Positions 2,700 through 18,638 of a stretch of 32,064 nt of DNA are shown here, one piece after another. The notes beneath the pieces were generated by a model that saw only the letters and a program-made list of their open reading frames with translations, ran no database searches and was not told the DNA's origin. Origin of the DNA: SAR324 cluster bacterium (GTDB taxonomy: Bacteria > SAR324 > JACQKK01); the NCBI GenBank assembly GCA_027297205.1, contig JAPUIH010000031.1, positions 1 through 32,064 of the forward strand. The letters are read 5' to 3'. The position numbers and the translations under genes were made by a program. Each line of letters begins with the position of its first letter. The stretch's first letter is position 1.

Positions 2700-5570
2700 A
2701 TGGTGATGATCAACAAATCCTGGATCGAGAAAACCGCCGAGCGGCTGAAACTGATCAAACCTCTTGAAACGGGGGATGGCGAGGCTTTGCCGCGCCTGAG
2801 CGTGACCGACTTGCAGGGCTTTCCGCCCCCGGAGCGGTGGCGGGATTGGGAGGAGTATGATGCCGGAGCCTGGCCCCTGAAAAAGAAGAAGCACTACCAG
2901 ATTATTCCCACCACCTGCTTCAACTGCGAATCCGCCTGCGGCATGGTGGCCTATGTGGACAAGGAGACGGGCAGCGTACGCAAATTCGAGGGCAATCCCT
3001 ATCATCCCGCCTCGCGGGGCCGCAACTGTGCCAAGGGCCCGGCCACCATCAACCAGATCAACGATCCCGAACGGATTCTCTACCCGCTGCGGCGCAAAGG
3101 GGCGCGGGGCTCCGGGCAATGGGAACGGGTGAGCTGGGGGGAGGTGCTGGACGATATCGCGGGCAGAATCCGCAAGGCCATCCAGGAAGAGCGCCGTAAC
3201 GAGGTGGTGTATCATGTGGGCCGTCCCGGGCATGAAGGTTATATGGACCGCGTCCTCAAATCCTGGGGCGTGGACGGCCACAACAGCCATACCAACATCT
3301 GCTCCGCCGGCGCGCGCCTGGGCTATGCCCTCTGGCAGGGCATCGACCGTCCATCCCCGGATTACGCCAACGCCCGCTTTATCCTGCTCATCAGTTCCCA
3401 TCTGGAAACCGGGCATTACTTCAACCCCCACGCCCAGCGCATCATGGAAGGCATGCAGGCCGGCGCGGAGCTGGCGGTGATGGACCCCCGCCTCTCCAAC
3501 ACGGCCAGCATGGCCCGTTACTGGATGCCCACCTATCCCGGCTCGGAAGCCGCCGTGCTGCTGGCCATGGCGCGGGTGATCCTGGCGGAGGGGCTGTACA
3601 ACCGGGAATTTCTGGAAAACTGGGTCAACTGGCGTGCTTACATGGGCGCGCACCATCCCCGCGCGCCCCAGCAATTTGAGAGTTTCATCGAAAAGCTGCT
3701 GGAGCATTACGCGGAATTCACCCCCGCATACGCGGCCGCCGAGGCCCAGGTGGACGAGGAGACCATCGTCTCCGTGGCGCGCCGCATCGGGGCGGCGGGC
3801 ACCCGCTTTGCCTGCCACAACTGGCGCAGCGCGAGCTCCGGGAACCTGGGGGGCTGGCAGGTCGCGCGCTGCCTGCATTTCCTGAGTGTGCTGACAGGTT
3901 CCGTGGGCACCGTGGGGGGCACCCTGCCCGCGGCATGGAGCAAGTTCAAGCCCACCCTGTTCGACAATCCGCCGGCCCAGAAACTTTGGAACGAGTTGCA
4001 TTTTCCGGACGAGTACCCCCTGGCCCACTTCGAGATGAGCCCGATTCTGCCCCATATGATCAAGGAAGGCCGGGGCAGGATTGACGTGTATTTCACGCGG
4101 GTATTCAACCCGGTCTGGACTTTCCCGGACGGCTTCTCCTGGATCGAAACCCTGCGGGAGGAGAAGTACTTCGGCTGCCACATTGCGCTTACGCCGACCT
4201 GGAACGAGACTGCGTATTACGCGGATTACGTGCTGCCCATGGGTCATGCCTCCGAGCGCCACGACCTGAACAGTTACGAGACCCACGCGGGCATGTGGAT
4301 TGCCTTCAGGCAGCCCGTGCTGCGCCGGTTCGCCGAAGAGAACGGTCAGGCCGTGGAGTTCACCTATCAGGTCAATCCGGGTGAAGTGTGGGAAGAGGAC
4401 GAGTTCTGGATCGAGCTGTCCTGGCGCATTGACCCGGACGGCTCCCTGGGCATCCGCGAGCACTTCCTCTCCCCCTACCGGAAGGGCGAGAAGATCACGA
4501 TCGAGGAATACTACCGTTATATATTCGAGCATACCCCCGGCCTGCCCGAGGCGGCCCAGGCGGAGGGCATGAGCCCGCTCGCATACATGTGCCACTACGG
4601 GGCCTTCGAGATTTCGAGCAATGTGTACGAAAAGCACAACACCGTGCTGGACAAGAAAACCCTGCAAGGCACGCAGACCGACCAGGCCAGCGGTCTCATC
4701 ACCCGCGACGGCGCGCCCACGGGCGTGATGGCGCGGGGCGAGCCCCGGGAAGGCTTTCCCACCCCCTCACGCCTGCAGGAGTTTTACTCGCCCACCATGG
4801 AGGAGTGGGGTTGGCCCGAATATGCCCTGCCCGGTTACATCAAGAGCCATATCCATCCGGAAAAGCTGGCGCGGGACAAGCACGAATACGTGCTGGTGCC
4901 CACCTTCCGCCTGCCCAATCTAATTCACAGCCGGTCGGGCAACGCCAAGTGGCTGGTGGAGATAGCGCACCGCAATCCGATCTGGATTCATACCTCCATG
5001 GCCGAGGCCCTGGGCGTTGGCACCGGAGACCTGCTCAAGGTAAACACGGATATCGGTTATTTTATCGATAAGGTATGGGTGACCGAGGCCATCAAGCCCG
5101 GCGTGGTGGCCTGTTCCCATCACATCGGGCGCTGGCAGCTCGATGGAGGGCAGAAGGGCAACCAGTGGATGGCCAACACGGTGCGATTGGAGGAGGGCGG
5201 CGGCAAATGGCGCATGCATACGGTGACCGGCGTGCAGCCCTTCGCCAGTGACGATCCCGACTCCCGGCGCATGTTCTGGCGGGATGGTGGCGTGCACCAG
5301 AACATCACCCATGCGGTGCATCCGGACCCCGTCAGTGGCATGCATTGCTGGCACCAGCGGGTGCGCCTGGAAAAGCCCGGCCCGGAAGAAAAATACGGCG
5401 ATATCCTGGTGGATACCAAGCGCTCCTTCGCGGTCTACAAGGAATGGCTGGAAATGACGCGGCCCCCGCGGCGGGCGGACGGCCTGAGACGGCCCCTGTG
5501 GCTGGGGCGCCCCCTGCGCCCGGCCGATGAAGCCTTTTACAAGACCCCACGGACGGATGCGGCGGATTGA
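2700..5570 (+). CDS. Molybdopterin-dependent oxidoreductase catalytic subunit (DMSO reductase superfamily, SoeA/PsrA-like, no Tat signal)
   Basis: N-terminal Fe4S4 motif CFNCESACGMVAYVDKETGSVRKFEGNPYHPASRGRNCAKGPA, HTNICSAGARLGYALWQG at the Mo-ligand region, and C-terminal molydopterin-binding region (GNAKWLVEIAHRNPIWIHTSMAEALGVGTGDLLKV). 956 aa. No twin-arginine signal at the N-terminus. Confidence 0.9.
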   Translation: MVMINKSWIEKTAERLKLIKPLETGDGEALPRLSVTDLQGFPPPERWRDWEEYDAGAWPLKKKKHYQIIPTTCFNCESACGMVAYVDKETGSVRKFEGNPYHPASRGRNCAKGPATINQINDPERILYPLRRKGARGSGQWERVSWGEVLDDIAGRIRKAIQEERRNEVVYHVGRPGHEGYMDRVLKSWGVDGHNSHTNICSAGARLGYALWQGIDRPSPDYANARFILLISSHLETGHYFNPHAQRIMEGMQAGAELAVMDPRLSNTASMARYWMPTYPGSEAAVLLAMARVILAEGLYNREFLENWVNWRAYMGAHHPRAPQQFESFIEKLLEHYAEFTPAYAAAEAQVDEETIVSVARRIGAAGTRFACHNWRSASSGNLGGWQVARCLHFLSVLTGSVGTVGGTLPAAWSKFKPTLFDNPPAQKLWNELHFPDEYPLAHFEMSPILPHMIKEGRGRIDVYFTRVFNPVWTFPDGFSWIETLREEKYFGCHIALTPTWNETAYYADYVLPMGHASERHDLNSYETHAGMWIAFRQPVLRRFAEENGQAVEFTYQVNPGEVWEEDEFWIELSWRIDPDGSLGIREHFLSPYRKGEKITIEEYYRYIFEHTPGLPEAAQAEGMSPLAYMCHYGAFEISSNVYEKHNTVLDKKTLQGTQTDQASGLITRDGAPTGVMARGEPREGFPTPSRLQEFYSPTMEEWGWPEYALPGYIKSHIHPEKLARDKHEYVLVPTFRLPNLIHSRSGNAKWLVEIAHRNPIWIHTSMAEALGVGTGDLLKVNTDIGYFIDKVWVTEAIKPGVVACSHHIGRWQLDGGQKGNQWMANTVRLEEGGGKWRMHTVTGVQPFASDDPDSRRMFWRDGGVHQNITHAVHPDPVSGMHCWHQRVRLEKPGPEEKYGDILVDTKRSFAVYKEWLEMTRPPRRADGLRRPLWLGRPLRPADEAFYKTPRTDAAD

Positions 5571-5591: not shown

Positions 5592-7448
5592 TTAAAATGC
5601 CAGGGAGAATCCGCTGTCGGGAATTTCCATCGCGCTCAAGTCTCCCTCGGCAAGCACCTCGTTCAGGCTGAACACGGTGGGCAGGATATTGCGCGCATAG
5701 AAGCGGGCCGTGGCAATCTTACCTTGATAATACTGGGCGTCCTGGCTGTCTTCGGCGGCATTCTTCAAGCCTTCCTCCGCGGTGAGCGCCCCTTCCAGCA
5801 GCAGCTTTGCGATGAGCGTCTTGGACATGCTTTCCAGAAAGCGCGTCGCGGTGAGCAGGACTAACTCCCGTTTGTCCTGGGCGAAGAATTCCATATACTT
5901 GCCCAAGACCACGTTGAATCCTTCCATGGCCCGGCCCAGCGCGGCACTCTCGGCCTCGTAGCCCTTGTGGCCCCCGAGGGCTTTTACGAATTCAGCCATT
6001 TCACCGGTAAAGCGGCCGATAACCGCCCCGCCGTTCTGGGTCAGTTTGCGCCCCACCAGGTCCAGGGCCTGAATGCCGTTGGTGCCCTCGTAGACAGGGA
6101 ATATTCTGGAATCGCGCATATACTGCTCCGCCGGGTAGTCGGCCGTGTAGCCGGCTCCGCCATAAACCTGGAGCGCCAGGGAAGACACATGCACCGCCAT
6201 GTCGGAGACGAAGGATTTGGCCAGGGGGATGAACAGCCCGAAGTAATCCGTCAGGGCGTCAGCCGCCTCGCGGTCCGACTTGCTCAATGTTGTGGCTTCG
6301 TCCATCAGCCGTACTGTAAAAAAGATCAGCGCACGGCAGCCCTCCACGGTGGATTTCATCTCCATCAGCATGCGCCGCACGTCGGGATGCTCAATGATGG
6401 GCACCGCACCGCTTTCCGGCCGGCCATCGCGGAAGTGCGCCCCTTGCTTGCGGGTGCGGGCATAACTGAGGGCGTTCAGATAGGCCGTGGAGGCTACGGC
6501 CAGGGACTGCACGCCCACGCCTATGCGGGCTCCGTTCATCATGAGGAACATCTTGCGGATGCCTTCGCCCGGCTCCGCGCTTTCCTCCCTTTCGCCGCCC
6601 AGCAAATAGCCATCGCAGTTACCCGCCTCGCCAAAGGCCAGCGCCGCGGTGGCGGAGCCGTGAATGCCCATCTTGTGCTCGATACTGGTGCAAGTGACGT
6701 CGTTGAATTCTCCCAGGGAGCCGTCGGGGTTGACCTTGAACTTGGGCACGATGAACAGGGAGAGGCCGCGGGTGCCCTTGGGCGATCCTTCGATCCGCGC
6801 CAACACCAAATGCACGATATTTTCAGTGATATCGTGATCGCCCCCGGAGATGAAAATCTTATTTCCGGTGATCTTGTAGCTGCCGTTGGAATTGGGCACG
6901 GCCTTGGTGCTGCTCAATCCCACGTCCGAGCCCGCGTGCGATTCCGTGAGCACCATGGTGCCGCCCCAGGTGCCGTTATCCAGCTTGGCGCTGTAAATCT
7001 CGCGCTGCTCCGGAGTGCCGAAGGCGCGTATCACGTTCGCCGCGCCGTTGGTGAGCGCGGGATACATCTGAAACGCGGTGTTGGCTCCACTCATCATTTC
7101 CGTAACGGCGATGCCGAGCAAGTTGGGTGCGCCCTGCCCTCCCGCCTCTTCGGACATGGACAGGGTGTTCCAGCCGCCCTCATAATACTGCTTCCAAAGC
7201 TCGTGCATCTCCGGGGGCACTTTTACGCCATCCTCCGTTTTCTGCACGCCGGTCCTGTCCGAGGATTGCAGGGTCGGCCCGATTACTTCCGATGCGAAAT
7301 GGTGGGCTTCCTTGAGAATCATGCGCGCGTCTTCCTCGCTGAAATGGTCGAAGGGCGGGGAAGAAAACAGATCGGTTAGCCTGAACTGCTCGAACAGGGT
7401 AAATTCCAGCTCCTTCAGATCGGCTTTGAAAAAATTAACATCGCTCAT
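5592..7448 (-). CDS. Acyl-CoA dehydrogenase (large, about 600 aa, with C-terminal extension)
   Basis: GGTMVLTESHAGSDVGLSSTKA, ISGGDHDI, LALQVYGGAGYTADYPAEQYMRDSRIFPVYEGTNGIQALDLVGRKL. Start taken at MSDVNFFKADLKELEF (7448); ORF open from 7496. Confidence 0.93.
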   Translation of the reverse strand: MSDVNFFKADLKELEFTLFEQFRLTDLFSSPPFDHFSEEDARMILKEAHHFASEVIGPTLQSSDRTGVQKTEDGVKVPPEMHELWKQYYEGGWNTLSMSEEAGGQGAPNLLGIAVTEMMSGANTAFQMYPALTNGAANVIRAFGTPEQREIYSAKLDNGTWGGTMVLTESHAGSDVGLSSTKAVPNSNGSYKITGNKIFISGGDHDITENIVHLVLARIEGSPKGTRGLSLFIVPKFKVNPDGSLGEFNDVTCTSIEHKMGIHGSATAALAFGEAGNCDGYLLGGEREESAEPGEGIRKMFLMMNGARIGVGVQSLAVASTAYLNALSYARTRKQGAHFRDGRPESGAVPIIEHPDVRRMLMEMKSTVEGCRALIFFTVRLMDEATTLSKSDREAADALTDYFGLFIPLAKSFVSDMAVHVSSLALQVYGGAGYTADYPAEQYMRDSRIFPVYEGTNGIQALDLVGRKLTQNGGAVIGRFTGEMAEFVKALGGHKGYEAESAALGRAMEGFNVVLGKYMEFFAQDKRELVLLTATRFLESMSKTLIAKLLLEGALTAEEGLKNAAEDSQDAQYYQGKIATARFYARNILPTVFSLNEVLAEGDLSAMEIPDSGFSLAF

Positions 7449-7594
7449 GAAACAGCTCCTAATTGGCTGCGAAGTCGCCTTGGTCTCCCTATGCACTCCC
7501 CATTGCCGACGGCGTCAGGTGCAGGTTTAATAACGCCTTTTTGTTAATTATGACCCAGAATATAATGACTCCCCAAATTTTAATATGGGATCGG

Positions 7595-8158
7595 TTACGG
7601 ACTGTACAAATAGGGGCGCATCCGCCGAGTGTAGTCCCTGATACTGTAGAACAGCCGCAGCAGCAGGAACGCCAGCAAATAATACAGCCCCAGGCCGTGG
7701 ATTTTGCTCCAGATCAGGAATGGGCTGTCCGGCAGCAGGGAGTAGCCATATCTGGCGGTCATGAACATTTCAATTCCGGAAATCAGCACGGCGCAAAGGC
7801 TGATCCAGTATCCAAGCCCGGCCACGACCCGCATGGGGGGGCGCGCTCTGATGACCGGCCATGGCCATCCGTTCCTGGCCGCACGAAACCCGCGCGGAAT
7901 GCTATGGACCAGCATGACCAGGCGGCACAGGCACTCGATCAAAATGACCAGTGCAAACAGCCAGTGCAGTACGCGCAGCGCCGGATAGGGCAGCAGCGTC
8001 CCGCCTGTGGAAAATTTCAGGTAGAGGCCCGTCGCGATCAGGCCCAGCAGGGCGAGCAGACCGGCCGCCCTGCCCGTTTGCACCAGCATACGGTCGGTGT
8101 TGGCCAGCCAGTCCAGCAGATCGCCGCTGCTGATTTGCGGAATTTTAATGAACCGCAT
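7595..8158 (-). CDS. Cytochrome b (HupC/HyaC or cytochrome b561-like) membrane subunit of the hydrogenase-like complex
   Basis: About four TM helices (AAGLLALLGLIATGLYL, LHWLFALVILIECLCRLVMLVHSI, VVAGLGYWISLCAVLISGIEMF, KIHGLGLYYLLAFLLLRLF) with candidate heme His residues (LHW, VHS, IHG). Start ATG at 8158 overlaps the large-subunit stop. Confidence 0.75.
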   Translation of the reverse strand: MRFIKIPQISSGDLLDWLANTDRMLVQTGRAAGLLALLGLIATGLYLKFSTGGTLLPYPALRVLHWLFALVILIECLCRLVMLVHSIPRGFRAARNGWPWPVIRARPPMRVVAGLGYWISLCAVLISGIEMFMTARYGYSLLPDSPFLIWSKIHGLGLYYLLAFLLLRLFYSIRDYTRRMRPYLYSP

Positions 8159-9635
8159 CGCTGGCACTGAAGAAATATGAATGCACAATCTGCGAGGCGC
8201 GCCGGCGGTCCCGCTCCGACCGCAAATCCAGGCCGGCTGAGTTGAGCGCAAGTTCGATACCGCTCGAGTTTTCGTTCTCGTCCCGTGGGGCGCCATTCCA
8301 GGTGCTGGCCGAGACGATGTCATATAAGGCGATACGGCCATTTCGCAGTACAAGGCGATGTTGGACAATGCCGGCGGGCGCCTCGATATGCGCCACCGCT
8401 TCGCCGTGCCCCTTGGAGGCGCCGTTGTCCTTTGCGATCGTGGGTTGCCCTGGATTCAGATGGTCCAGCAGAGATTCGCATCTCTCCACCAGTGGATGCA
8501 ATTCCCCCAACCGGGCCAGAATGCGCCCTCCGGTGGTGTTGGCATCCAATACAGGCACCCCCAGCACTTCCTGGATGCGTTCCACCAGTGGCGCCACATG
8601 GCTGCGCGATCCGCTGAGATGGGTGATCACCAGGCGCGCCAAGGCGCCGGTTTCCGCCCGGCGGGCTTGATATAGGGGAGCCTTGATCCAACTGTAGGCG
8701 CCTTGTTTTTGCGGAGCTTCCTCCAGCAATTGGAAATTCCCGCCGGCCTTGAGCGGAACACGGTAGAAGGCGTACTGGAGATTTTCCGTGACGTTTGGCT
8801 GAAAGGATTCCAGGGTATTGCCGAACAGCACGCCCCCGGGGAATAAGGACTCTTCGGGGCCCGTATCGTCTCCGATTGTGCCGGCGCTCAGATATGCCTG
8901 GGAGCCCTTGCCCAGGGTTTTCGTCTCCTCCCGCTTTTCGAGCAACAGCAGACCGTCCTCCAGGGGCGTCTCCCGCAGGAATGGCCCGATCTCGCGCATC
9001 AGGGTGCGCAGCCTGAACACGAGCGGCTCCCGAAGCGGAGTCGTAGCTCCGCCAGGGACAATGGACATCACCAGGGGAAATTTCCCTCCAATAATGGCCA
9101 TCATGCGCTGCAGGAGGGACAGCGCCCGCAACGCCCGGGCCTGATTCTCGGCGAGCTGGTTGATTTCGCTGTCCGAAAATCGGTGCGGGAAGCGGTGGCG
9201 CGCCCAGGAGCCCGGCGGTTGTGCACCCATGGCTTGGGCCACGCGCCGCAGCTCCGGCGAAGGGCCCTTGTATGCGGCCAGGGCGCTGGGGGGAATGAAA
9301 TCGGGCAGCGCCTGAAAATAAAACTGCCGCAGATTGGCATGAAGAAATGACAAGGTATGCAACAGCTCCCGCAACAACAGCCCATTTTGCGCTGTCCCGG
9401 TATCCGTGGCCGCCTCCCACGCGCTAATGGCTGCAAGGGCATGGCTGACGCCGGAGTCCGCGCCAATGAGCTGGGTCATATAAACCGCGTCCAGGGGAGC
9501 CCTGCCGCGCAGCAGCTTTTCAAATCCCCGCGGCCGCGAGGCAGCCACCATGATGGTCCCCCCATCATCCTGGACAAGTTGCGCGGCGCCCTCGATCCGC
9601 TTGATTTGCATGCGCAAGGCCGCCATATCAAGCAT
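8145..9635 (-). CDS. [NiFe]-hydrogenase large-subunit homologue lacking all Ni-Fe cysteine ligands
   Basis: Hydrogenase framework: RIEG near the N-terminus, GVSHALAAISAWEAA after the L1 position, LLHTLSFLHANLRQFYFQALPDF, STWNGAPRDENENSSGIELAL, C-terminal VHSYFFSASDAVH*. L1 is TQLIGADSGVSH where RVCGICxxSH is expected. L2 is YFFSASDAVH where FDPCxxCAVH is expected. Confidence 0.85.
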   Translation of the reverse strand: MLDMAALRMQIKRIEGAAQLVQDDGGTIMVAASRPRGFEKLLRGRAPLDAVYMTQLIGADSGVSHALAAISAWEAATDTGTAQNGLLLRELLHTLSFLHANLRQFYFQALPDFIPPSALAAYKGPSPELRRVAQAMGAQPPGSWARHRFPHRFSDSEINQLAENQARALRALSLLQRMMAIIGGKFPLVMSIVPGGATTPLREPLVFRLRTLMREIGPFLRETPLEDGLLLLEKREETKTLGKGSQAYLSAGTIGDDTGPEESLFPGGVLFGNTLESFQPNVTENLQYAFYRVPLKAGGNFQLLEEAPQKQGAYSWIKAPLYQARRAETGALARLVITHLSGSRSHVAPLVERIQEVLGVPVLDANTTGGRILARLGELHPLVERCESLLDHLNPGQPTIAKDNGASKGHGEAVAHIEAPAGIVQHRLVLRNGRIALYDIVSASTWNGAPRDENENSSGIELALNSAGLDLRSERDRRRASQIVHSYFFSASDAVH

Positions 9636-10635
9636 CCTCCTTGTCGCCAGTCTCCACCCCCCGCCTTTCCTCCGGCGTGAGCGCCCTGCGGATCAGGTGC
9701 AGCCCAATGCCTGCCGCGGCCAGGGCGGCCGTGCCCATACCGAGCGCCTCCAGATTTTGCAGCAGGGCCGACTGACTGCCGAACATGCCGCCGCTCAACC
9801 GGCCATAAAGGCCCACACCGCCATGATCGGGAAAGCCCGGCTCGGCGCAGCCCGTGCAGGGACCGCCGGCTCCCACACACCAGTTGGCGCCCCCGTTCCA
9901 GCGCACCGCGGAGCAGCTGTTATGGGTAATTGGTCCCTTGCAGCCCAGTTGCAGCAGGCAGCCCGCGGAGCCAAATTCCTGAGCAAAGCGGCCGGTTTCC
10001 AGATCGTCCCGGCGCTCGCAACGTTCGCATACGGTTTCACCGTAATAGAGCAGCGGCCGCCGCTTTCCGTCGAGTCGGGGAAAACCGTAATATTCCAGAT
10101 GGTTAAGAATGCCCAGCAAATGATGGGGCGGCACCGGAATGCCGGGCAACTTTATCAGTGGGGTCTTGTGCTGCCTGCACAGTGCCACGAAGTCGGCGAT
10201 GTCCCGTCTGTCCGTGGAAATTCCACCGAAGCAGGCCTCAGTGCCCAGCAGCAATGCCGCCTTGGCCTGGGGCAGGACGGCACGCACCTTGGCAGCAATC
10301 TGCAATCCCGGGCCGTGCCGGCTGGGGACAGCCTCCATGACCAGTATGGGCGCGGCGGAAAACGGCCCCTGATTCGCCACGAAGCCCGTGGGTTGCACGG
10401 GGCCGTAGTCCCGCAAATCCCATTGGACGGCGATTAGGTCTAGAAAAGTCGGCAACTGCTGGCCCAACAGGGCCAGGTGGTCCTGGTCGCTGACCCCGTC
10501 TTTGATCCACACGAGCGGCGTGACTGGGACCCGTTCCGCCAGGGAGGCGGCCATGGCTTGCAGGGAGGGCAGACCCGCAGCGCCCGAGGTGCCAAGGAGT
10601 ATTCCTTTAATAATTTCCCGCCTGGAAAATTTCAT
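9628..10635 (-). CDS. [NiFe]-hydrogenase small-subunit homologue with Tat signal and C-terminal anchor
   Basis: MKFSRREIIKGILLGTSGAAGLPSLQAMA (Tat-like). VCERCERRDDLETGRFAQEFGSAGCLLQLGCKGPITHNSCSAVRWNGGANWCVGAGGPCTGCAEPGFPD is diagnostic of hydrogenase small subunits. Terminal TM LGMGTAALAAAGIGLHLI. Start at 10635 preferred over 10695. Confidence 0.87.
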   Translation of the reverse strand: MKFSRREIIKGILLGTSGAAGLPSLQAMAASLAERVPVTPLVWIKDGVSDQDHLALLGQQLPTFLDLIAVQWDLRDYGPVQPTGFVANQGPFSAAPILVMEAVPSRHGPGLQIAAKVRAVLPQAKAALLLGTEACFGGISTDRRDIADFVALCRQHKTPLIKLPGIPVPPHHLLGILNHLEYYGFPRLDGKRRPLLYYGETVCERCERRDDLETGRFAQEFGSAGCLLQLGCKGPITHNSCSAVRWNGGANWCVGAGGPCTGCAEPGFPDHGGVGLYGRLSGGMFGSQSALLQNLEALGMGTAALAAAGIGLHLIRRALTPEERRGVETGDKEDA

Positions 10636-10810
10636 CCGCCTGATTATTCCCTTTGCAATCGGATTGGCGATTTCGTGTGATTGGAAGAGGTGCATGGCCT
10701 CCCCTCCTGTTTATAGCCCTCGGGCATCGCGCTTTCAACCTTGGACTTGCGGCAGCCGCAAGCAATCTGATGGTTATCCGCTCAAAAAGATAATTATTTC
10801 GGGTTTATGC

Positions 10811-10839
10811 TTGTCAAACAAGAATAGTTTGTGTAGAAC
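10811..10839 (+). promoter_or_regulatory. Candidate sigma70-type promoter for the S24 regulator and its leader
   Basis: TTGTCA (10811-10816), 17-nt spacer, TAGAAC (10834-10839). Lies in the divergent region upstream of the structured leader. Confidence 0.35.
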
Positions 10840-10868: not shown

Positions 10869-11158
10869 CCGCAGCGGTGTGAGGTGTAACGGCACGAACC
10901 GCTGCGGCTAAGGTGGGGAAGGGAAGTTGCAGTAACGAAACCCGGAGAAGGGCGAAATGCCGAAAATGCTGCTCTTACGGGAAGGGTGGTTCAGGGATCG
11001 GAACGGAACTGGCCCAAGGATGGCACCCTTGCCATGGTGCGCCACCGGCTGGCAGCCTTTCTCCGGGCTTTCGATGGGGCAGGGATTGCGCCATTGATTG
11101 ACCATGCCGGATGCCACGAGCGGCGGCGAAAACCGTCAGGAACCACCCTTATGGGAGG
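10869..11158 (+). ncRNA. Candidate structured 5' leader RNA or cis-regulatory element upstream of the S24 regulator
   Basis: Perfect complementary pairs: 10869-10877/10899-10907 (CCGCAGCGG/CCGCTGCGG), 10941-10949/11059-11067 (CCCGGAGAA/TTCTCCGGG), 10982-10992/11140-11150 (AAGGGTGGTTC/GAACCACCCTT). Hairpins at 11020-11035, 11036-11046 and 11047-11057. No convincing ORF. Confidence 0.55.
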
Positions 11159-11167
11159 GATTCAAGG

Positions 11168-11827
11168 ATGAAGACACTCGCCGAGGTTTTACGGAATCGC
11201 ATCCAGGAGATGGGCTTTGAGGATATCAAGGAGTGCGCCCGTCAGTTTGACGTGCCCTATGAATTGCTCCGGAAGGTGATATCCGACGGCCATCTACCCA
11301 AGGACAAGACCCTGTTGTTCTACGCGGAGAAGTTCGGACTAAACGCGGCGGACCTGATTTCCATCGTATACCGGCAACGTGCGCCCCAGCATCTCAAGTA
11401 CTTGTTTGACAGCCCCTCGGGCCTGACGCCCGCGCCGATGCCCGAAACCAGCAGGCAGGCGCCCGTGCTGGGCCGCGCAGCCTGCGGCGAGTGGTTGGAA
11501 TCCTACCAGGTGGAGCCGGACGCCTACGAGCCGGTGGACCTCGGCGATGATGATGCGTTCTTTGTAACGGCCGAGGGGGAAAGCATGGTGGGAGGCAATA
11601 TCCCGCCAGGCGCATACCTGTTGGTATCGCCCCGGGCACGGGTCAGCAATGGGGACATTGTGCTGGCCCGATTGGGTGAAGAGGAATTTACGGTCAAGAG
11701 CTACTTCCGTCAGGCAAGCGGCACCACCATTCTCCAACCCATGAATTCGGCCTACGAGCCGTTGGTGCTCGGGCCGGAAGAGCCGCTTACCGTGATGCGA
11801 ATTACCGAGATTCGTATTAAAACCTGA
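11168..11827 (+). CDS. HTH plus S24/LexA-CI-like peptidase-domain transcriptional regulator
   Basis: N-terminal HTH-like region (ECARQFDVPYELLRKVISDGHLPKDKTLLFYAEKFGL). S24 features: GRAACGEW cleavage-like site, AEGESMVGGNIPPGAYLLV (Ser) and EEFTVKSYFR (Lys). GGGAGGG SD upstream of ATG 11168. Confidence 0.85.
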   Translation: MKTLAEVLRNRIQEMGFEDIKECARQFDVPYELLRKVISDGHLPKDKTLLFYAEKFGLNAADLISIVYRQRAPQHLKYLFDSPSGLTPAPMPETSRQAPVLGRAACGEWLESYQVEPDAYEPVDLGDDDAFFVTAEGESMVGGNIPPGAYLLVSPRARVSNGDIVLARLGEEEFTVKSYFRQASGTTILQPMNSAYEPLVLGPEEPLTVMRITEIRIKT

Positions 11828-12253: not shown

Positions 12254-13039
12254 ATGATGCCGAACCTGCTGCAGTTCGATCCCACCCAAATCATTGGATT
12301 TGTAGTCATATTCACCCGAATTACGGGGATTATGGTGATATCGCCCATTCTTGGCGACACCAATATCCCCATGCAGATCAAAGTCGCTATCGCCTTTGTG
12401 TTTTCTCTGGTTTTCTTTCCGGTCGTTGGAGCGGCGGATTTGGGTCCAAATCCGGAGCTAAGCCGAATCTTGTATGTGGCCGTGACTGAATTCGGCCTGG
12501 GTCTGGTGATGGGATTTGCCGTGCGGATGTTATTCACGGGCGTGAGCCTTGCAGGGGAAGTGGCAGGCTTTCAGATGGGTGTGGGTGTGGCCAATATCTT
12601 CGATCCGAGTTCCGAGCAGCAAGTCTCTCTGATCGGTCAGATTCAGGTCATATTTGCCCTGCTGCTCTTTGTTACGCTGGACGGGCATCACTTGCTGATC
12701 AAATCCCTCGTGGAAAGCTACGCCATTGTTCCGCCGGGAGGGCTGGCCCTGAGCGAACAGGGAATGCGCTTTTTTGTAGCGCAAGCGGGCAATATATTCC
12801 TGATCGGCCTGCAGATCGGCGCACCCTTGATCGTGGCCTTGCTGGCGGCCAACTTCAGTATGGGTCTGATCGCGCGCTCGGTGCCGCAAATGAACGTAAT
12901 CGTGGTCGGGTTCCCGTTTTCGATAGGCCTGGGGCTGCTGTTCCTATTCTTGGGATTTCCGTATTTTATGCGTTCCATGATGGTCATTATCGAGCGGCTG
13001 GATGACATCCTGATGGCCGCACTGAAGCTGCTGGGATAG
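12254..13039 (+). CDS. fliR: Flagellar export apparatus protein FliR
   Basis: VVIFTRITGIMVISPILGDTNIPMQIKVAIAFVFSLVFFPV, EVAGFQMGVGVANIFDPSSEQQVSLIGQ. Size and gene order fit FliR. Start may be 12254 or 12257. Confidence 0.95.
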   Translation: MMPNLLQFDPTQIIGFVVIFTRITGIMVISPILGDTNIPMQIKVAIAFVFSLVFFPVVGAADLGPNPELSRILYVAVTEFGLGLVMGFAVRMLFTGVSLAGEVAGFQMGVGVANIFDPSSEQQVSLIGQIQVIFALLLFVTLDGHHLLIKSLVESYAIVPPGGLALSEQGMRFFVAQAGNIFLIGLQIGAPLIVALLAANFSMGLIARSVPQMNVIVVGFPFSIGLGLLFLFLGFPYFMRSMMVIIERLDDILMAALKLLG

Positions 13040-13052
13040 GCGAGGATTATCC

Positions 13053-14129
13053 ATGGCGGAAGCCGAAGCACAAGAAAAAACCGAGGTTCCAACCCAGAAA
13101 AAGCGGGAGGATTCCCGTAAAGAGGGCATGGTGGCATCCAGCCGTGAGGTTTCCTCCGCGGCGTTGCTGGGCGCCTTCGCGCTGTATTTTCTGGTTGCGG
13201 GTCAGAGCAACATGGGCACCATGAAATCCGTGTGGCGCCACTCCTTTACCAATCTTGCGGCGGGCGATCTCACCATCGCGGAATTGGGACGAGTGTTCAA
13301 GGATGTCACGATGACCCTTGCGCCCATGCTGCTCGGGGTGTTCGGGCTGATATTTATCGTGGCGCTGCTGGCCTCCTACATTCAGGTAGGCGCGGTTTTT
13401 AACGCCCTGAAGTTTCAGCCGAACCGCCTCAATCCCCTCAACGGCATCAAGCGTATCTTCTCTTCCGTGGGCCTGGCCGAGTTTCTGAAGAGCTTGTTCA
13501 AGATGGGGGTGATTGGCTACATCACCTACTTTTCCTACCAGCAGGAAACGGAGGGGATGCTGCAACTGTCCAGGTTGTCCGTTGAGGGAATCCTGGCTTT
13601 CAATGCCTCTCTGCTGGGCGTTTTGTTCGGACGGGTGGCACTGGCTTTGGTGATTTTGGCTATCTTCGATTATCTGTTTCAGCGCTGGAACATGGAGCAG
13701 CGAATTAAGATGACCCGCCAGGAAGTTAAGGACGAATTAAAACAGACGGAAGGTGACCCACAACTGCGCGCAAGGGTACGACAAGTGCAAAGAGATGTAT
13801 CACGGGCCCGGATGATGCAAAATGTGCCCAAGGCCGATGTGGTTGTCACCAACCCGACCCATTACGCGGTGGCCCTGATGTACGATCGTGAGGTCATGAC
13901 AGCTCCTAGACTGGTGGCCAAGGGAGCGGGCCATATCGCCCAACGTATCAGGGATATAGCCGAAGAAAACGAGGTGCCGATCGTGGAAAATCCACCCATG
14001 GCCAGGGAAATATACGCTCAGGTGGAAATCGGCAATGAAATTCCCGAAGAATTTTTCAAAACAGTGGCGGAAATTCTTGCCTATGTGTACCGCATCAAGG
14101 GGCAGACCGCCGAGCCTCCGCTAAACTAA
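13053..14129 (+). CDS. flhB: Flagellar export apparatus protein FlhB
   Basis: EKTEVPTQKKREDSRKEGMVASSREV N-terminus; autocleavage motif VVTNPTHYAVALMYD. Confidence 0.97.
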   Translation: MAEAEAQEKTEVPTQKKREDSRKEGMVASSREVSSAALLGAFALYFLVAGQSNMGTMKSVWRHSFTNLAAGDLTIAELGRVFKDVTMTLAPMLLGVFGLIFIVALLASYIQVGAVFNALKFQPNRLNPLNGIKRIFSSVGLAEFLKSLFKMGVIGYITYFSYQQETEGMLQLSRLSVEGILAFNASLLGVLFGRVALALVILAIFDYLFQRWNMEQRIKMTRQEVKDELKQTEGDPQLRARVRQVQRDVSRARMMQNVPKADVVVTNPTHYAVALMYDREVMTAPRLVAKGAGHIAQRIRDIAEENEVPIVENPPMAREIYAQVEIGNEIPEEFFKTVAEILAYVYRIKGQTAEPPLN

Positions 14130-14202: not shown

Positions 14203-16290
14203 ATGGCCGTAGGAACCGCAGAAACTACATTGATGAAGGTCGGCCGCCATACCGACTTTATGCTGGCCATTGGTGTGGTCAGTATCATCATGGTGTTGGT
14301 GCTGCCCCTCGCGCCGATCCTGCTGGATTTGCTGCTGACGACCAGCATCGCCGTGGCGGTGTTGATTCTATTCGTTTCGCTGTTTACCAGGACGACGCTG
14401 GACTTTTCGGCTTTTCCGACCATCTTGCTTATTTCCACCTTGTTCCGCCTTTCGCTGAACGTTGCGTCCACCCGGCTCATTCTGGTGAATGGCAACCAAG
14501 GCTTGGCCGCGGCGGGGAACGTCATCAAATCCTTCGGCGATTTTGTGGTCGGCGGTAACTTTGTGGTGGGGATTATCATTTTCCTGATCCTGGTGGTTAT
14601 CAACTTTGTGGTAATCACCAAAGGCGCGGGGCGGATCGCCGAGGTGGCGGCACGCTTTACCCTGGACGCCATGCCGGGCAAGCAGATGGCCATCGACGCC
14701 GATCTCAATGCGGGCATCATCGAAGATACGGAAGCCAAGGAGCGCCGCGTCAGGATTCAGCAAGAGGCGGATTTTTACGGTGCCATGGATGGTGCCAGCA
14801 AGTTCGTACGGGGGGATGCTATCGCGGGTTTGATCATCACCGGCGTCAACATCATCGGCGGACTGGTGATCGGGGTCTTTCAATTCGGCATGGATCTGGA
14901 AACGGCCCTAGACACCTACACGGTCTTGACCGTGGGCGATGGCCTGGTCGCACAGATTCCGGCTCTGATCGTCTCCATGGCCGCTGGTATCGCCGTTACC
15001 AAGGCTTCGGGCGACGAAACCCTGGCCGATGACATCAAAAAGCAGTTGCTGGGCAATCACCGGGCCATGTCCGTGGCGTCGCTGGTGATTTTTGGCTTCG
15101 CCATCATTCCCGGCATGCCCACTTTGCCCATGATGGTGGTGGCGTCGACCGTGGGCTTAATTGCCTATTTGACCTACAGCGGAAAACAGCGGGCAAGCGC
15201 GGAAGAGGTGGAAGCCACGGCTGCCGAAGCGCAGCAGGCCGCCGAGGAGGCCCCGGAAGACATCGAGGCATTGCTGCCCATCGACCGCCTTGGCATTGAG
15301 CTTGGGTTTGGGCTGATTCCTCTGGTTGATGCCGAGCAGGACGGGGAGCTGCTGGAGCGGATCAAGTCCATCCGCCGCCAGTTGGCGACGGAAATGGGCT
15401 TTATCGTTCCGCCCATCCATATCAAGGACAATCTGGATCTGGCCCCGGGCGCCTATTCCATCATCATCAAAGGGGTGGAAGTGGGGCGCTCCGAAGTGAT
15501 GCTGGATCACTTGCTGGCCATGAAGACTGGCGATGTGGACGAGGATATTGCCGGGGTGGACACCATCGAACCCGCATTCGGTTTGCCCGCCCTGTGGATT
15601 CCACCCGAAGATCAGGAGCGCGCGCAGTTCGCCGGCTTTACCGTGGTCGATCTGCCCACGGTGCTGGCCACGCACCTGATTGAAGTTGTAAAGCGTCATG
15701 CGCCGGAGTTCCTGGGCAGGCAGGAAGCACAACGGCTGATCGACAATTTCGGCAAGGATGAGCCCAAGGTGGTGGAGGAGTTGATCCCCAACGTACTCAC
15801 CCTGGGTGTGGTGCAGAAAGTGATGCAGAACCTGCTGCGTGAGCGGGTGTCCATTCGCGATCTGCACACGGTGATGGAAACCCTGGCCGACATGGGGGGA
15901 TTAACCAAGGACCCGGACCTGCTCACCGAGTATGTGCGCCAATATATGGCGCGCACCATCACGCGCCAGTATCAGACGCCTGACGGCACGCTGCCGCTGG
16001 TTTCGCTCTCCCAGGACTGGGAGGACAAGCTGGCCGCCGCCATCCAGACCACGCCCCAGGGCACTTATCTGGGCCTGGATCCCGAAATGGCGCAAAACGT
16101 TATTCAGAACATTGAAGGGCAGATGGAAAACTTCGCCGTATTCAGTTACCAGCCCATTTTGCTCTGTTCGCCGTTGATCCGGCCCCATGTGAAGAAATTG
16201 ACTGAACGGTTTATTCCGAATCTGGTGGTGCTGTCCCACAACGAGGTCTCCCACGACGTGCGAATCGAGTCTTTGGGACTGGTAGGCTAG
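14203..16290 (+). CDS. flhA: Flagellar export apparatus protein FlhA
   Basis: TLFRLSLNVASTRLIL, GDFVVGGNFVVGIIIFLILVVINFVVITKGAGRIAEVAARFTLDAMPGKQMAIDADLNAGII. 695 aa. Confidence 0.98.
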   Translation: MAVGTAETTLMKVGRHTDFMLAIGVVSIIMVLVLPLAPILLDLLLTTSIAVAVLILFVSLFTRTTLDFSAFPTILLISTLFRLSLNVASTRLILVNGNQGLAAAGNVIKSFGDFVVGGNFVVGIIIFLILVVINFVVITKGAGRIAEVAARFTLDAMPGKQMAIDADLNAGIIEDTEAKERRVRIQQEADFYGAMDGASKFVRGDAIAGLIITGVNIIGGLVIGVFQFGMDLETALDTYTVLTVGDGLVAQIPALIVSMAAGIAVTKASGDETLADDIKKQLLGNHRAMSVASLVIFGFAIIPGMPTLPMMVVASTVGLIAYLTYSGKQRASAEEVEATAAEAQQAAEEAPEDIEALLPIDRLGIELGFGLIPLVDAEQDGELLERIKSIRRQLATEMGFIVPPIHIKDNLDLAPGAYSIIIKGVEVGRSEVMLDHLLAMKTGDVDEDIAGVDTIEPAFGLPALWIPPEDQERAQFAGFTVVDLPTVLATHLIEVVKRHAPEFLGRQEAQRLIDNFGKDEPKVVEELIPNVLTLGVVQKVMQNLLRERVSIRDLHTVMETLADMGGLTKDPDLLTEYVRQYMARTITRQYQTPDGTLPLVSLSQDWEDKLAAAIQTTPQGTYLGLDPEMAQNVIQNIEGQMENFAVFSYQPILLCSPLIRPHVKKLTERFIPNLVVLSHNEVSHDVRIESLGLVG

Positions 16291-16339: not shown

Positions 16340-17644
16340 ATGCAAATCAAACGTTACCGCGCAGCGGATATGCACGAGGCGTTGAGCAAGGTCAAAAAAG
16401 ACATGGGCGCGGATGCCGTGATTCTATCCACCCGCCAGGTGCGGGGGGGAGGCGGAACTTTCGGCCTGTTCGGCAAACCCATGCTGGAGGTCACCGCCGC
16501 CCGCGAGACGCCGGGCGACGACGGGGGCAACAGTACCCTGCGCGCCGCTTTGACCGGGGGCGACAGGGCGCTGGCCGTCAATGAGGGGGAGCATCGGCCC
16601 GCGGATGGCGCGGCAAGCGAATTAATGCGCCAGATGCTTTCCAGGAACAAGATGGAGACCGAAAGCTTGCTGGCACCCTTGCAGGATGACATCCACGATC
16701 TGAAAGAGATTATGCAGTCCGTGGGGGATTCCCAGAAAAATGGCCTGCGCGAGGAGACCGCGCTGCAGCAAATCCGTAGCGACCTGGCCAACATGCACCA
16801 GTTGCTGCACTCCCTGACCGCTCAATCCACAACCCTGCGCGGGGCGGAATATCCCGACAACCTGGTGGTGCTCTACCAGCAGTTGATCTTTAACGGGATG
16901 GAGGAAAAATTCGCGCGGCGGCTGGTGGAAGAATCCCTGAAAAGCATCCCGGGCAAGGAGATGGAAGATTTCTCCTACGTAAAGATCTTCCTGGCCCGCA
17001 TGCTGATGAAGATCATCAACACCACAAACGGCATCCAGGCCGATGGAGATCAGCAGAAAGTGGTGGCGCTGGTCGGTCCCACAGGCGTGGGCAAGACCAC
17101 CACGGTGGCCAAGCTGGCCTCCGAGCAACTGCTCAAGCATCGCAGGAAGGTGGCGCTGATCACCATCGACACCTTCCGTATCGCCGCGGTGGAGCAGCTC
17201 AAGGTGTATGCGAAAATCATGGGCGTTCCCGTCTCGGTGGTGCAGAGCAAGGGGGAACTGCGCCAGGCCATTGACAGAAATGCCGGCGCGGATGTCATAT
17301 TCGTGGATACAGGCGGGCGTTCCCAGCGCGACGACTTGCAAATGTCGGAAATCTACAAGCTCTTTGGAGATGCGGAAAACATCGACATCCTGCTGACCCT
17401 GAGCGCCACCACCAAGGATGCGGACCTGACCGAGATAACCCGGCGCTTCAATGAAATCCCTCTTTCCGGAGTGGTGTTTACAAAGCTGGACGAGAGCACG
17501 GCCTTTGGTTCTATGTTCAACCATGCCATCCGCTTCAAAATGCCAATTGCCTATTTGACCACGGGTCAGAAGGTGCCCGAGGACATGGAGTTGGCCACGC
17601 GGGAGCGCTTGGTCGACCTGATGTTGAATATCACCGATGCCTGA
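16340..17644 (+). CDS. flhF: Flagellar SRP-like GTPase FlhF
   Basis: MQIKRYRAADMHEALSKVKKDMGADAVILSTR; GTPase motifs VGPTGVGKTTTVAKLA, TIDTFRIAAVEQL, VDTGGRSQRD, TKLDE. Confidence 0.97.
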   Translation: MQIKRYRAADMHEALSKVKKDMGADAVILSTRQVRGGGGTFGLFGKPMLEVTAARETPGDDGGNSTLRAALTGGDRALAVNEGEHRPADGAASELMRQMLSRNKMETESLLAPLQDDIHDLKEIMQSVGDSQKNGLREETALQQIRSDLANMHQLLHSLTAQSTTLRGAEYPDNLVVLYQQLIFNGMEEKFARRLVEESLKSIPGKEMEDFSYVKIFLARMLMKIINTTNGIQADGDQQKVVALVGPTGVGKTTTVAKLASEQLLKHRRKVALITIDTFRIAAVEQLKVYAKIMGVPVSVVQSKGELRQAIDRNAGADVIFVDTGGRSQRDDLQMSEIYKLFGDAENIDILLTLSATTKDADLTEITRRFNEIPLSGVVFTKLDESTAFGSMFNHAIRFKMPIAYLTTGQKVPEDMELATRERLVDLMLNITDA

Positions 17645-17723: not shown

Positions 17724-18638
17724 ATGGATCAAGCAACCACCCTCCGCAAAATCGTCAATCTCAACAAATTCGAAGAAGGCCCGCAGCCCAAGTTGAGCGG
17801 CCGCATGCGCGTGATCGCCATTACCAGCGGCAAAGGCGGAGTCGGCAAAACGAATATTGTGCTCAATCTGTGCATGGCCCTGAGCAGTCGTAATCGCCGC
17901 GTATTGTTGCTCGATGCGGACATGGGGCTGGCCAATGTGGATGTGTTGCTGGGGCTCACTCCCAAATATACCCTTGAACACGTGATGAATCGGCAGAAGG
18001 ATGTGCGGGACATCATGCTCACCGGTCCCGCCGGATTCCGCATCCTTCCCTCGGGTTCGGGCATCAGCGAGCTCTCTGAAATGACCTATGAGCAGCAAAT
18101 GCACCTGTTTCAGGAGCTGAGCAAGATCGACGACGATCTGGATTATCTGTTTATCGATACGGGCGCGGGCATATCCTCCAACGTGCTGCGTTTTAATGCC
18201 TCGGCCAACGAGATTCTGATTATCGCCAATCCGGAGCCCACCTCCATTACGGATGCCTATGCGCTGATGAAGCTGCTGGCCATTAAGTACCACATCCGAG
18301 ATTTTGGCCTTATTGCCAATTCCGTCACTTCCCGGGCCGACGGGCAGGGGGTCTACGACACTCTGGAGCGGGTGTGCAGCCAATTTCTCAAAGTGAACCT
18401 GAACTTTCTGGGCTGGATTCCCTTCGACGCCAATTTCCGCAGGACCGTGCGCCAGCAAAAGCCGCTGCTGGAGTTGTATCCGGATTCCCCCGCGGCAAAG
18501 AGTATTTCCCGCATCGCCGATCTGCTGGACAGCCACTCCGTCACGCAATTGCCTCCTCAAGCCGCCGCCGGCGCTGAAATCGGGCCGGAAAAAGCCTCCA
18601 GTTTTTGGGACCGTTTATTGCATTGGAAGAAGATGTAA
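17724..18638 (+). CDS. flhG: MinD-like ATPase FlhG/FleN, flagellar number regulator
   Basis: ITSGKGGVGKTNIVLNLCMAL deviant Walker A, LLDADMGLANVDVLLGL; directly downstream of flhF. Confidence 0.95.
   Translation: MDQATTLRKIVNLNKFEEGPQPKLSGRMRVIAITSGKGGVGKTNIVLNLCMALSSRNRRVLLLDADMGLANVDVLLGLTPKYTLEHVMNRQKDVRDIMLTGPAGFRILPSGSGISELSEMTYEQQMHLFQELSKIDDDLDYLFIDTGAGISSNVLRFNASANEILIIANPEPTSITDAYALMKLLAIKYHIRDFGLIANSVTSRADGQGVYDTLERVCSQFLKVNLNFLGWIPFDANFRRTVRQQKPLLELYPDSPAAKSISRIADLLDSHSVTQLPPQAAAGAEIGPEKASSFWDRLLHWKKM

Follow-up and report, generated by a model that had tools for sequence, protein, structure and literature searches.

A predicted hydrogenase-derived membrane redox module without NiFe ligands in SAR324 bacteria

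Introduction

What is a membrane-bound hydrogenase operon for when its large subunit carries no ligands for the NiFe site? The question is raised by three overlapping genes in a 32,064-nucleotide stretch of DNA from a SAR324 cluster bacterium (here, the window), which have the small subunit–large subunit–cytochrome b order of group 1 membrane-bound [NiFe]-hydrogenases (Hyd-1 HyaABC, MBH HoxKGZ and the periplasmic NiFe/NiFeSe enzymes). Loss of the NiFe site is already known for cytoplasm-facing relatives, namely complex I and Ehr. NuoD of complex I is a hydrogenase large-subunit homologue without the NiFe cysteines, and the Ehr-type operon Mhun_1817–1822, which resembles a membrane-bound hydrogenase, has lost its NiFe ligands (PMC2686161). 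The latter, a group-4-type case, was the only one that we found when searching the literature for group-1-type homologues without NiFe ligands, and this search returned no periplasmic group-1-like heterotrimer that lacks the NiFe and proximal sites yet keeps its other clusters and one haem. A SAR324 survey describes hydrogenases of group 1d in some of the aquifer genomes and reports that every genome has flagellar genes; in the portion considered, no mention of a module of this type was found (PMC9031357). Such a module would mean that respiratory modules other than hydrogenases have arisen from hydrogenases by a second route, and would provide a natural 'hydrogenase minus active site' in which to study electron exit from the medial cluster.

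Results

Layout of the three genes

The module comprises the following genes.

9628–10635, minus strand: small subunit (SSU), 335 aa, ATG at MKFSRR; Tat small subunit with a C-terminal anchor
8145–9635, minus strand: large subunit (LSU), 496 aa; [NiFe]-hydrogenase family, without the Ni/Fe cysteines
7595–8158, minus strand: cytochrome b subunit, 187 aa; about four hydrophobic helices and two invariant His

The original prediction had placed the genes correctly (SSU from 10635 to 9628, LSU from 9635 to 8145, cytochrome b from 8158 to 7595), as it had both overlaps, which span 8 nt between SSU and LSU (9628–9635) and 14 nt between LSU and cytochrome b (8145–8158). The homology of SSU and LSU to hydrogenases is far above chance: the SSU matched NiFe_hyd_SSU_C at E = 1.4e-25 and PDB hydrogenases at E = 8e-34, and the LSU matched NiFeSe_Hases at E = 1.6e-54 and PDB hydrogenases at E = 3e-35. 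The module would warn against inferring hydrogen metabolism from Pfam matches in SAR324 genomes. The Tat motif SRREIIK (10606–10626) and a hydrophobic C-terminal helix (SSU residues 297–315) were both present as predicted, and the twin Arg of the signal is invariant among SSU homologues. An Rfam scan of the window gave no matches.

The NiFe site is lost from the large subunit

The window LSU has a single Cys (C386) in its 496 residues, located at no ligand position. Its L1 motif, RxCGxC in hydrogenases, reads LIGADS, and its L2 motif, HSFDPCxxCAVH in hydrogenases, reads HSYFFSASDAVH-stop (FFSASDAVH-stop); RxCGxC and DPCxxC were each present in none of 17 homologues. When the 17 SSU–LSU pairs were aligned with active hydrogenases, all four NiFe cysteines were missing in every module LSU: Cys1 is replaced by S, G or T, Cys2 by S, G or N, Cys3 by S in family 1 (that of the window) or by Q or V in family 3, and the bridging Cys4 by an acidic residue throughout (16 Asp, 1 Glu). 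The catalytic Arg of EAPRG is likewise a small residue (A, G, S or T) in 17 of 17, and all 11 active references retain both the cysteines and the Arg. The LSU ends exactly at the maturation His, the cleavage point in hydrogenases (window: AVH), with no C-terminal extension. In Hyd-5, an LSU His points at the proximal cluster (PMC3940037); the His located there in hydrogenases was found in 9 of 11 active references versus none of the 17 module LSUs.

Two cluster sites remain in the small subunit

All four cysteines of the proximal cluster are replaced in 17 of 17 SSUs. The Cys of GTCA has become E or D and the Asn that precedes the PGCP Cys by four residues has become K or R, each in all 17, and the two may plausibly form a salt bridge that fills the cavity. 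A Cys in the family-1 motif GTEACxGG (C135) was considered as a retained proximal ligand and rejected, as it is the E/D that aligns with the ligand, and family 3 lacks the Cys. With the proximal cluster lost, electrons cannot reach the old catalytic cavity via the normal chain; the medial cluster is the end of the chain, and a new entry point must be postulated.

Eight other cysteines, C203, C206, C226 and C232 at the distal site and C241, C253, C260 and C263 at the medial site, are invariant in 17 of 17. The distal His is a Cys in the homologues, and the medial site has a fourth Cys. A Pro-to-Cys replacement at the medial site favours a [4Fe-4S] cluster. The change seen here is that of the P242C variant of Hyd-1 (PMC4771823).

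Searches outside SAR324 turned up two best-scoring SSU matches, at 7977–9065 of locus L068 and 2774–3877 of locus L069, which belong to intact hydrogenases whose SSU carries Asp for the first proximal Cys (TDAGC).

The cytochrome subunit keeps one haem pair

The cytochrome b subunit matched PF01292 weakly (2.6e-5, below the curated cut-off), and the profile of its own family matched the formate dehydrogenase subunit FdnI (1kqf_C, 1.2e-7), likewise a multi-helix cytochrome b. In formate dehydrogenase N, H57 and H155 hold the periplasm-side haem (bP), and H18 and H169 the cytoplasm-side haem. Across the 17 cytochromes, of which the others are 10–33% identical to that of the window, only H65, G128 and H154 are invariant. 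In the family profile alignment, H65 in the second transmembrane helix aligns with FdnI H57, whereas the position of FdnI H18, the first-helix His of the cytoplasm-side second haem, is not His; H154 would correspond to FdnI H155 by topology only. Di-haem hydrogenase and formate dehydrogenase cytochromes b use four His for two b haems, and the two invariant His found in the 17 sequences would be ligands enough for one bis-His b haem. The suggestion that a haem-b subunit had been kept thus holds for one bis-His pair and fails for the usual two, which makes classical transmembrane electrogenic electron transfer unlikely.

Comparison with known systems

Besides gene order, the module shares with group 1 [NiFe]-hydrogenases a Tat SSU with a C-terminal anchor, both subunit families, a b-type anchor and the medial and distal cluster positions (eight invariant ligands). 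Unlike them, it is without NiFe ligands, catalytic Arg, proximal cluster and C-terminal maturation extension, has Cys for the distal His and one haem His pair rather than two, and occurs in carriers without Hyp proteins. Ehr-type operons and NuoD resemble it in having hydrogenase large-subunit homologues minus the NiFe cysteines; however, they are relatives within group 4/complex I that face the cytoplasm and carry ion-pumping subunits in the membrane, whereas the module is predicted to be periplasmic and group-1-like, and its conserved gene set has only a b-type cytochrome in the membrane. Complex I also keeps the proximal-type cluster N2, which the module has lost. HupK and HoxV are inactive large-subunit homologues as well, but work inside hydrogenase operons with HypC-type proteins, whereas the module has its own SSU and cytochrome and neither a hydrogenase nor HypD. 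Judged by the defining features of each, the module appears to be neither a [NiFe]-hydrogenase, nor a HupK/HoxV protein, nor an Ehr/complex I system. Its workings would instead resemble those of a membrane-bound hydrogenase's electron-transfer half.

Distribution and selection

With an SSU profile, the module was detected in 17 of 52 SAR324 genomes, distributed as 9/10 in family f1, 0/31 in f2, 8/10 in f3 and 0/1 in f4. In a genome search, LSU relatives turned up both in the window's family (9 of 10 genomes, 41–51% identity) and in another family belonging to the same class (26–32%). Among 84,980 named species, of which we considered the best 80 of 550 matches, so that rarer relatives elsewhere are possible, the 15 best matches were loci of the module type; they came from metagenome-assembled genomes (MAGs) labelled SAR324, Candidatus Lambdaproteobacteria, Deltaproteobacteria or 'bacterium'. 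Beyond these, the best matches among the same 80 were ordinary hydrogenases with both Cys motifs. All 17 LSUs formed one clade with support of 100/100 and one change of label, in a tree in which long branches meet, so that the depth at which the clade joins the hydrogenases is uncertain.

The three-gene synteny, whose lack in other genomes had been named as grounds for abandoning the original prediction, was conserved, and the 17 homologues strongly support the predicted hydrogenase layout from which the active site has been removed and in which the redox module has been kept. Reading frames are intact in all 17 genomes. In same-genus pairs, pS was saturated (0.76–0.92) and pN was 0.18–0.27 for SSU and LSU and 0.30–0.39 for cytochrome b; the module is under strong purifying selection, with function retained. 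As far as sequence can establish them, the loss of the NiFe and proximal sites, the two cluster sites, the single haem pair, the Tat signal and anchor, the selection and the synteny stand firm.

Hydrogenase and maturation genes in carriers

No other PF00374 protein was found in the window genome (91% complete), and HypD was found neither there (G000) nor in eight further carriers (9 of 17), including G003 (97% complete) and G042 (98% complete). These absences speak against both a NiFe enzyme and a HupK-type role in those genomes. Among the carriers that do have HypD, several also encode a genuine hydrogenase.

Family-1 neighbourhood

In the window, the module is flanked by the following features.

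5592–7496, minus strand: acyl-CoA dehydrogenase (PF00441 and PF12806), 98 nt downstream of cytochrome b
10810–10831, minus strand: conserved candidate for an operator/promoter, CAA-N11-TTGRCAAG, situated between regulator and SSU; window copy CAAACTATTCTTGTTTGACAAG
11111–11827, plus strand: divergent S24/LexA-type regulator with Ser-Lys dyad (GESM/TVK) and Cys-Gly cleavage site
12254–13039, plus strand: fliR, conserved flagellar neighbour
13053–14129, plus strand: flhB, conserved flagellar neighbour
14203–16290, plus strand: flhA, conserved flagellar neighbour
16340–17644, plus strand: flhF, conserved flagellar neighbour
17724–18638, plus strand: flhG, conserved flagellar neighbour

The divergent regulator, whose true start is likely near 11168 from comparison with homologues, occurs in 8 of 9 family-1 loci, and the seven copies checked have both the Ser-Lys dyad and the Cys-Gly cleavage site. 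At L038 (G005), an enoyl-CoA hydratase (7682–8455) lies directly upstream of the module in place of the regulator. The dyad-like element was found in six family-1 loci in one orientation (window, L033, L035, L036, L037 and L040). With up to three mismatches to the consensus, no further sites were found in nine genomes, nor were any with a reversed control, suggesting only local control; the window's own divergent site fails the consensus at this limit.

Of the 8 family-1 loci whose sequence extends 600 nt or more past cytochrome b, 7 have the acyl-CoA dehydrogenase next to that gene; at L038 (G005), none was present within 604 nt. The Fe-S domain of ETF:quinone oxidoreductase (ETF-QO; PF05187) had no match in the 52 SAR324 genomes despite the presence of acyl-CoA dehydrogenases, so electrons must pass from ETF to quinone in some other way. 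Replacement of ETF-QO by the module was rejected as the explanation, because the absence is phylum-wide and hence not specific to carriers.

Association with flagellar genes

The flagellar neighbour of the module differs by family: fliR–flhBA in family 1 versus flgBC–fliEFHI in family 3. Beyond the regulator, fliR–flhB was present in 5 of 9 family-1 loci (window, G001, G003, G006 and G008), a count in which one further contig ends too early. The module follows flgBC–fliEFHI in 7 of 8 family-3 loci. In four genera (G041, G042, G043 and G045), flgB–flgC–fliE...fliI, a metallophosphoesterase gene, SSU, LSU and cytochrome b all have the same orientation, and the genes around the module mostly overlap or are closely spaced (a spurious gene call on the reverse strand lies over fliF–fliH in G043); in three g24 genomes, a reverse-strand gene separates fliI from SSU. 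The copy L041 of G050 lies elsewhere, away from this run, and no flagellar neighbour was seen for it or for the modules of G004, G005 and G009.

Flagella do not need the module: FliF was found in 48 of 52 SAR324 genomes, including 29 of 31 in family 2, where the module is absent (0/31) and the same flagellar run occurs without it. In family 3, the module and FliF are missing from the same two genomes (Fisher p 0.022, with small numbers and incomplete MAGs).

Several features of these runs were observed in passing. The metallophosphoesterase upstream of the family-3 modules in the four genera looks exported, and a VanY-type D,D-carboxypeptidase lies downstream in all seven flagellar loci (metallophosphoesterase/VanY-type flanking genes at 7256–8209 of L042 and 7539–8207 of L045). 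The SAR324 flgBC–fliEFHI runs have no fliG between fliF and fliH (L045, L163, L165, L168 and L171); FliG is encoded elsewhere, often as several FliG-domain proteins, including ones of about 600 aa. This gap was rejected as the reason for the module's position, as it is found in all SAR324 families examined.

Proposed role and alternatives

Loss of the active site, together with long retention in many uncultured SAR324 bacteria, usually beside motor genes, suggests that the electron transfer is probably not for hydrogen. We think it reasonably probable that the complex is a non-hydrogenase, derived from a group-1-like periplasmic uptake hydrogenase and converted to a membrane-anchored relay that connects with the quinone pool through two clusters and one haem and is probably brought into use together with motility. 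SSU and LSU would be exported together by Tat as a dimer, with a predicted periplasmic location, and the LSU would serve as a rigid cover and docking surface for a putative partner at the medial cluster or LSU. If both cluster sites are occupied, electrons would pass, in one direction or the other, between this periplasmic partner, the medial cluster, the distal cluster and the periplasm-side haem, where they would be exchanged with quinone; with a single haem, no charge would be carried across the membrane. In family 1, quinol from acyl-CoA oxidation may be one electron source, as suggested by the co-located acyl-CoA dehydrogenase.

The flagellar placement and the dedicated S24-type repressor suggest production within the motility programme or its stress control. 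That the relay is specifically a redox module of motility, a quinone-linked two-cluster, one-haem complex made with flagellar basal-body genes (in family 1 controlled by a dedicated autoproteolytic repressor) through which respiratory redox state is coupled or reported to flagellar function, is possible but doubtful. Through the module, a connection between flagella and redox chemistry in the periplasm could be tested.

It is unlikely that the complex senses rather than carries electrons, with clusters and haem reporting quinone or periplasmic redox state to an LSU-bound partner and so adjusting either motility, as energy taxis, or the flagellar operon. The invariance of the redox ligands after loss of the catalytic site and the flagellar association would suit such a role, and a precedent for sensors of hydrogenase origin is offered by the regulatory hydrogenases (PMC5665086). 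Those, however, are cytoplasmic, whereas this complex is predicted to be periplasmic and membrane anchored, and its conserved neighbours include neither a kinase nor any other signalling partner.

A mainly structural or assembly role, such as a periplasmic scaffold near the flagellar basal body in which redox centres serve only fold stability, strikes us as quite improbable. Conserved charged or small residues fill the active site and proximal cluster, and the flagellar context, including the tight gene run shared with fliI in four genera, agrees with a scaffold; but in cytochromes only 10–33% identical, the conservation of just two His and one Gly fits haem binding, not shape.

We give as little credence to a fatty-acid oxidation accessory in family 1, which would take electrons from the adjoining acyl-CoA dehydrogenase via quinol and stand in for the hydrogenase or formate dehydrogenase that syntrophic beta-oxidisers have in the periplasm. 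The dehydrogenase downstream in seven family-1 loci, the enoyl-CoA hydratase upstream in G005 and the lack of a Pfam ETF-QO domain in the 52 genomes are in keeping with it. However, the dehydrogenase is unlinked to the module in family 3 and is of a cytoplasmic type that cannot contact periplasmic subunits directly, and ETF-QO is also absent from SAR324 bacteria without the module.

A hydrogenase maturation scaffold is barely credible: HupK and HoxV are also large-subunit-like, and HoxV has no enzyme activity (PMC12134894), but here the LSU is accompanied by its own Tat SSU and cytochrome b, and the window genome has neither a hydrogenase to mature nor HypD. A decaying pseudo-operon without function, as the lost catalytic residues might imply, has next to no probability against conserved synteny, frames intact in 17 genomes, invariant ligands and purifying selection.

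Other genes in the window

On the plus strand, 852–2657 and 2700–5570 encode a Psr/Phs-like molybdoenzyme, in which the catalytic subunit is preceded by a single ORF that fuses a four-cluster Fe-S (B) subunit with an NrfD membrane (C) subunit. A methyltransferase gene precedes the pair.
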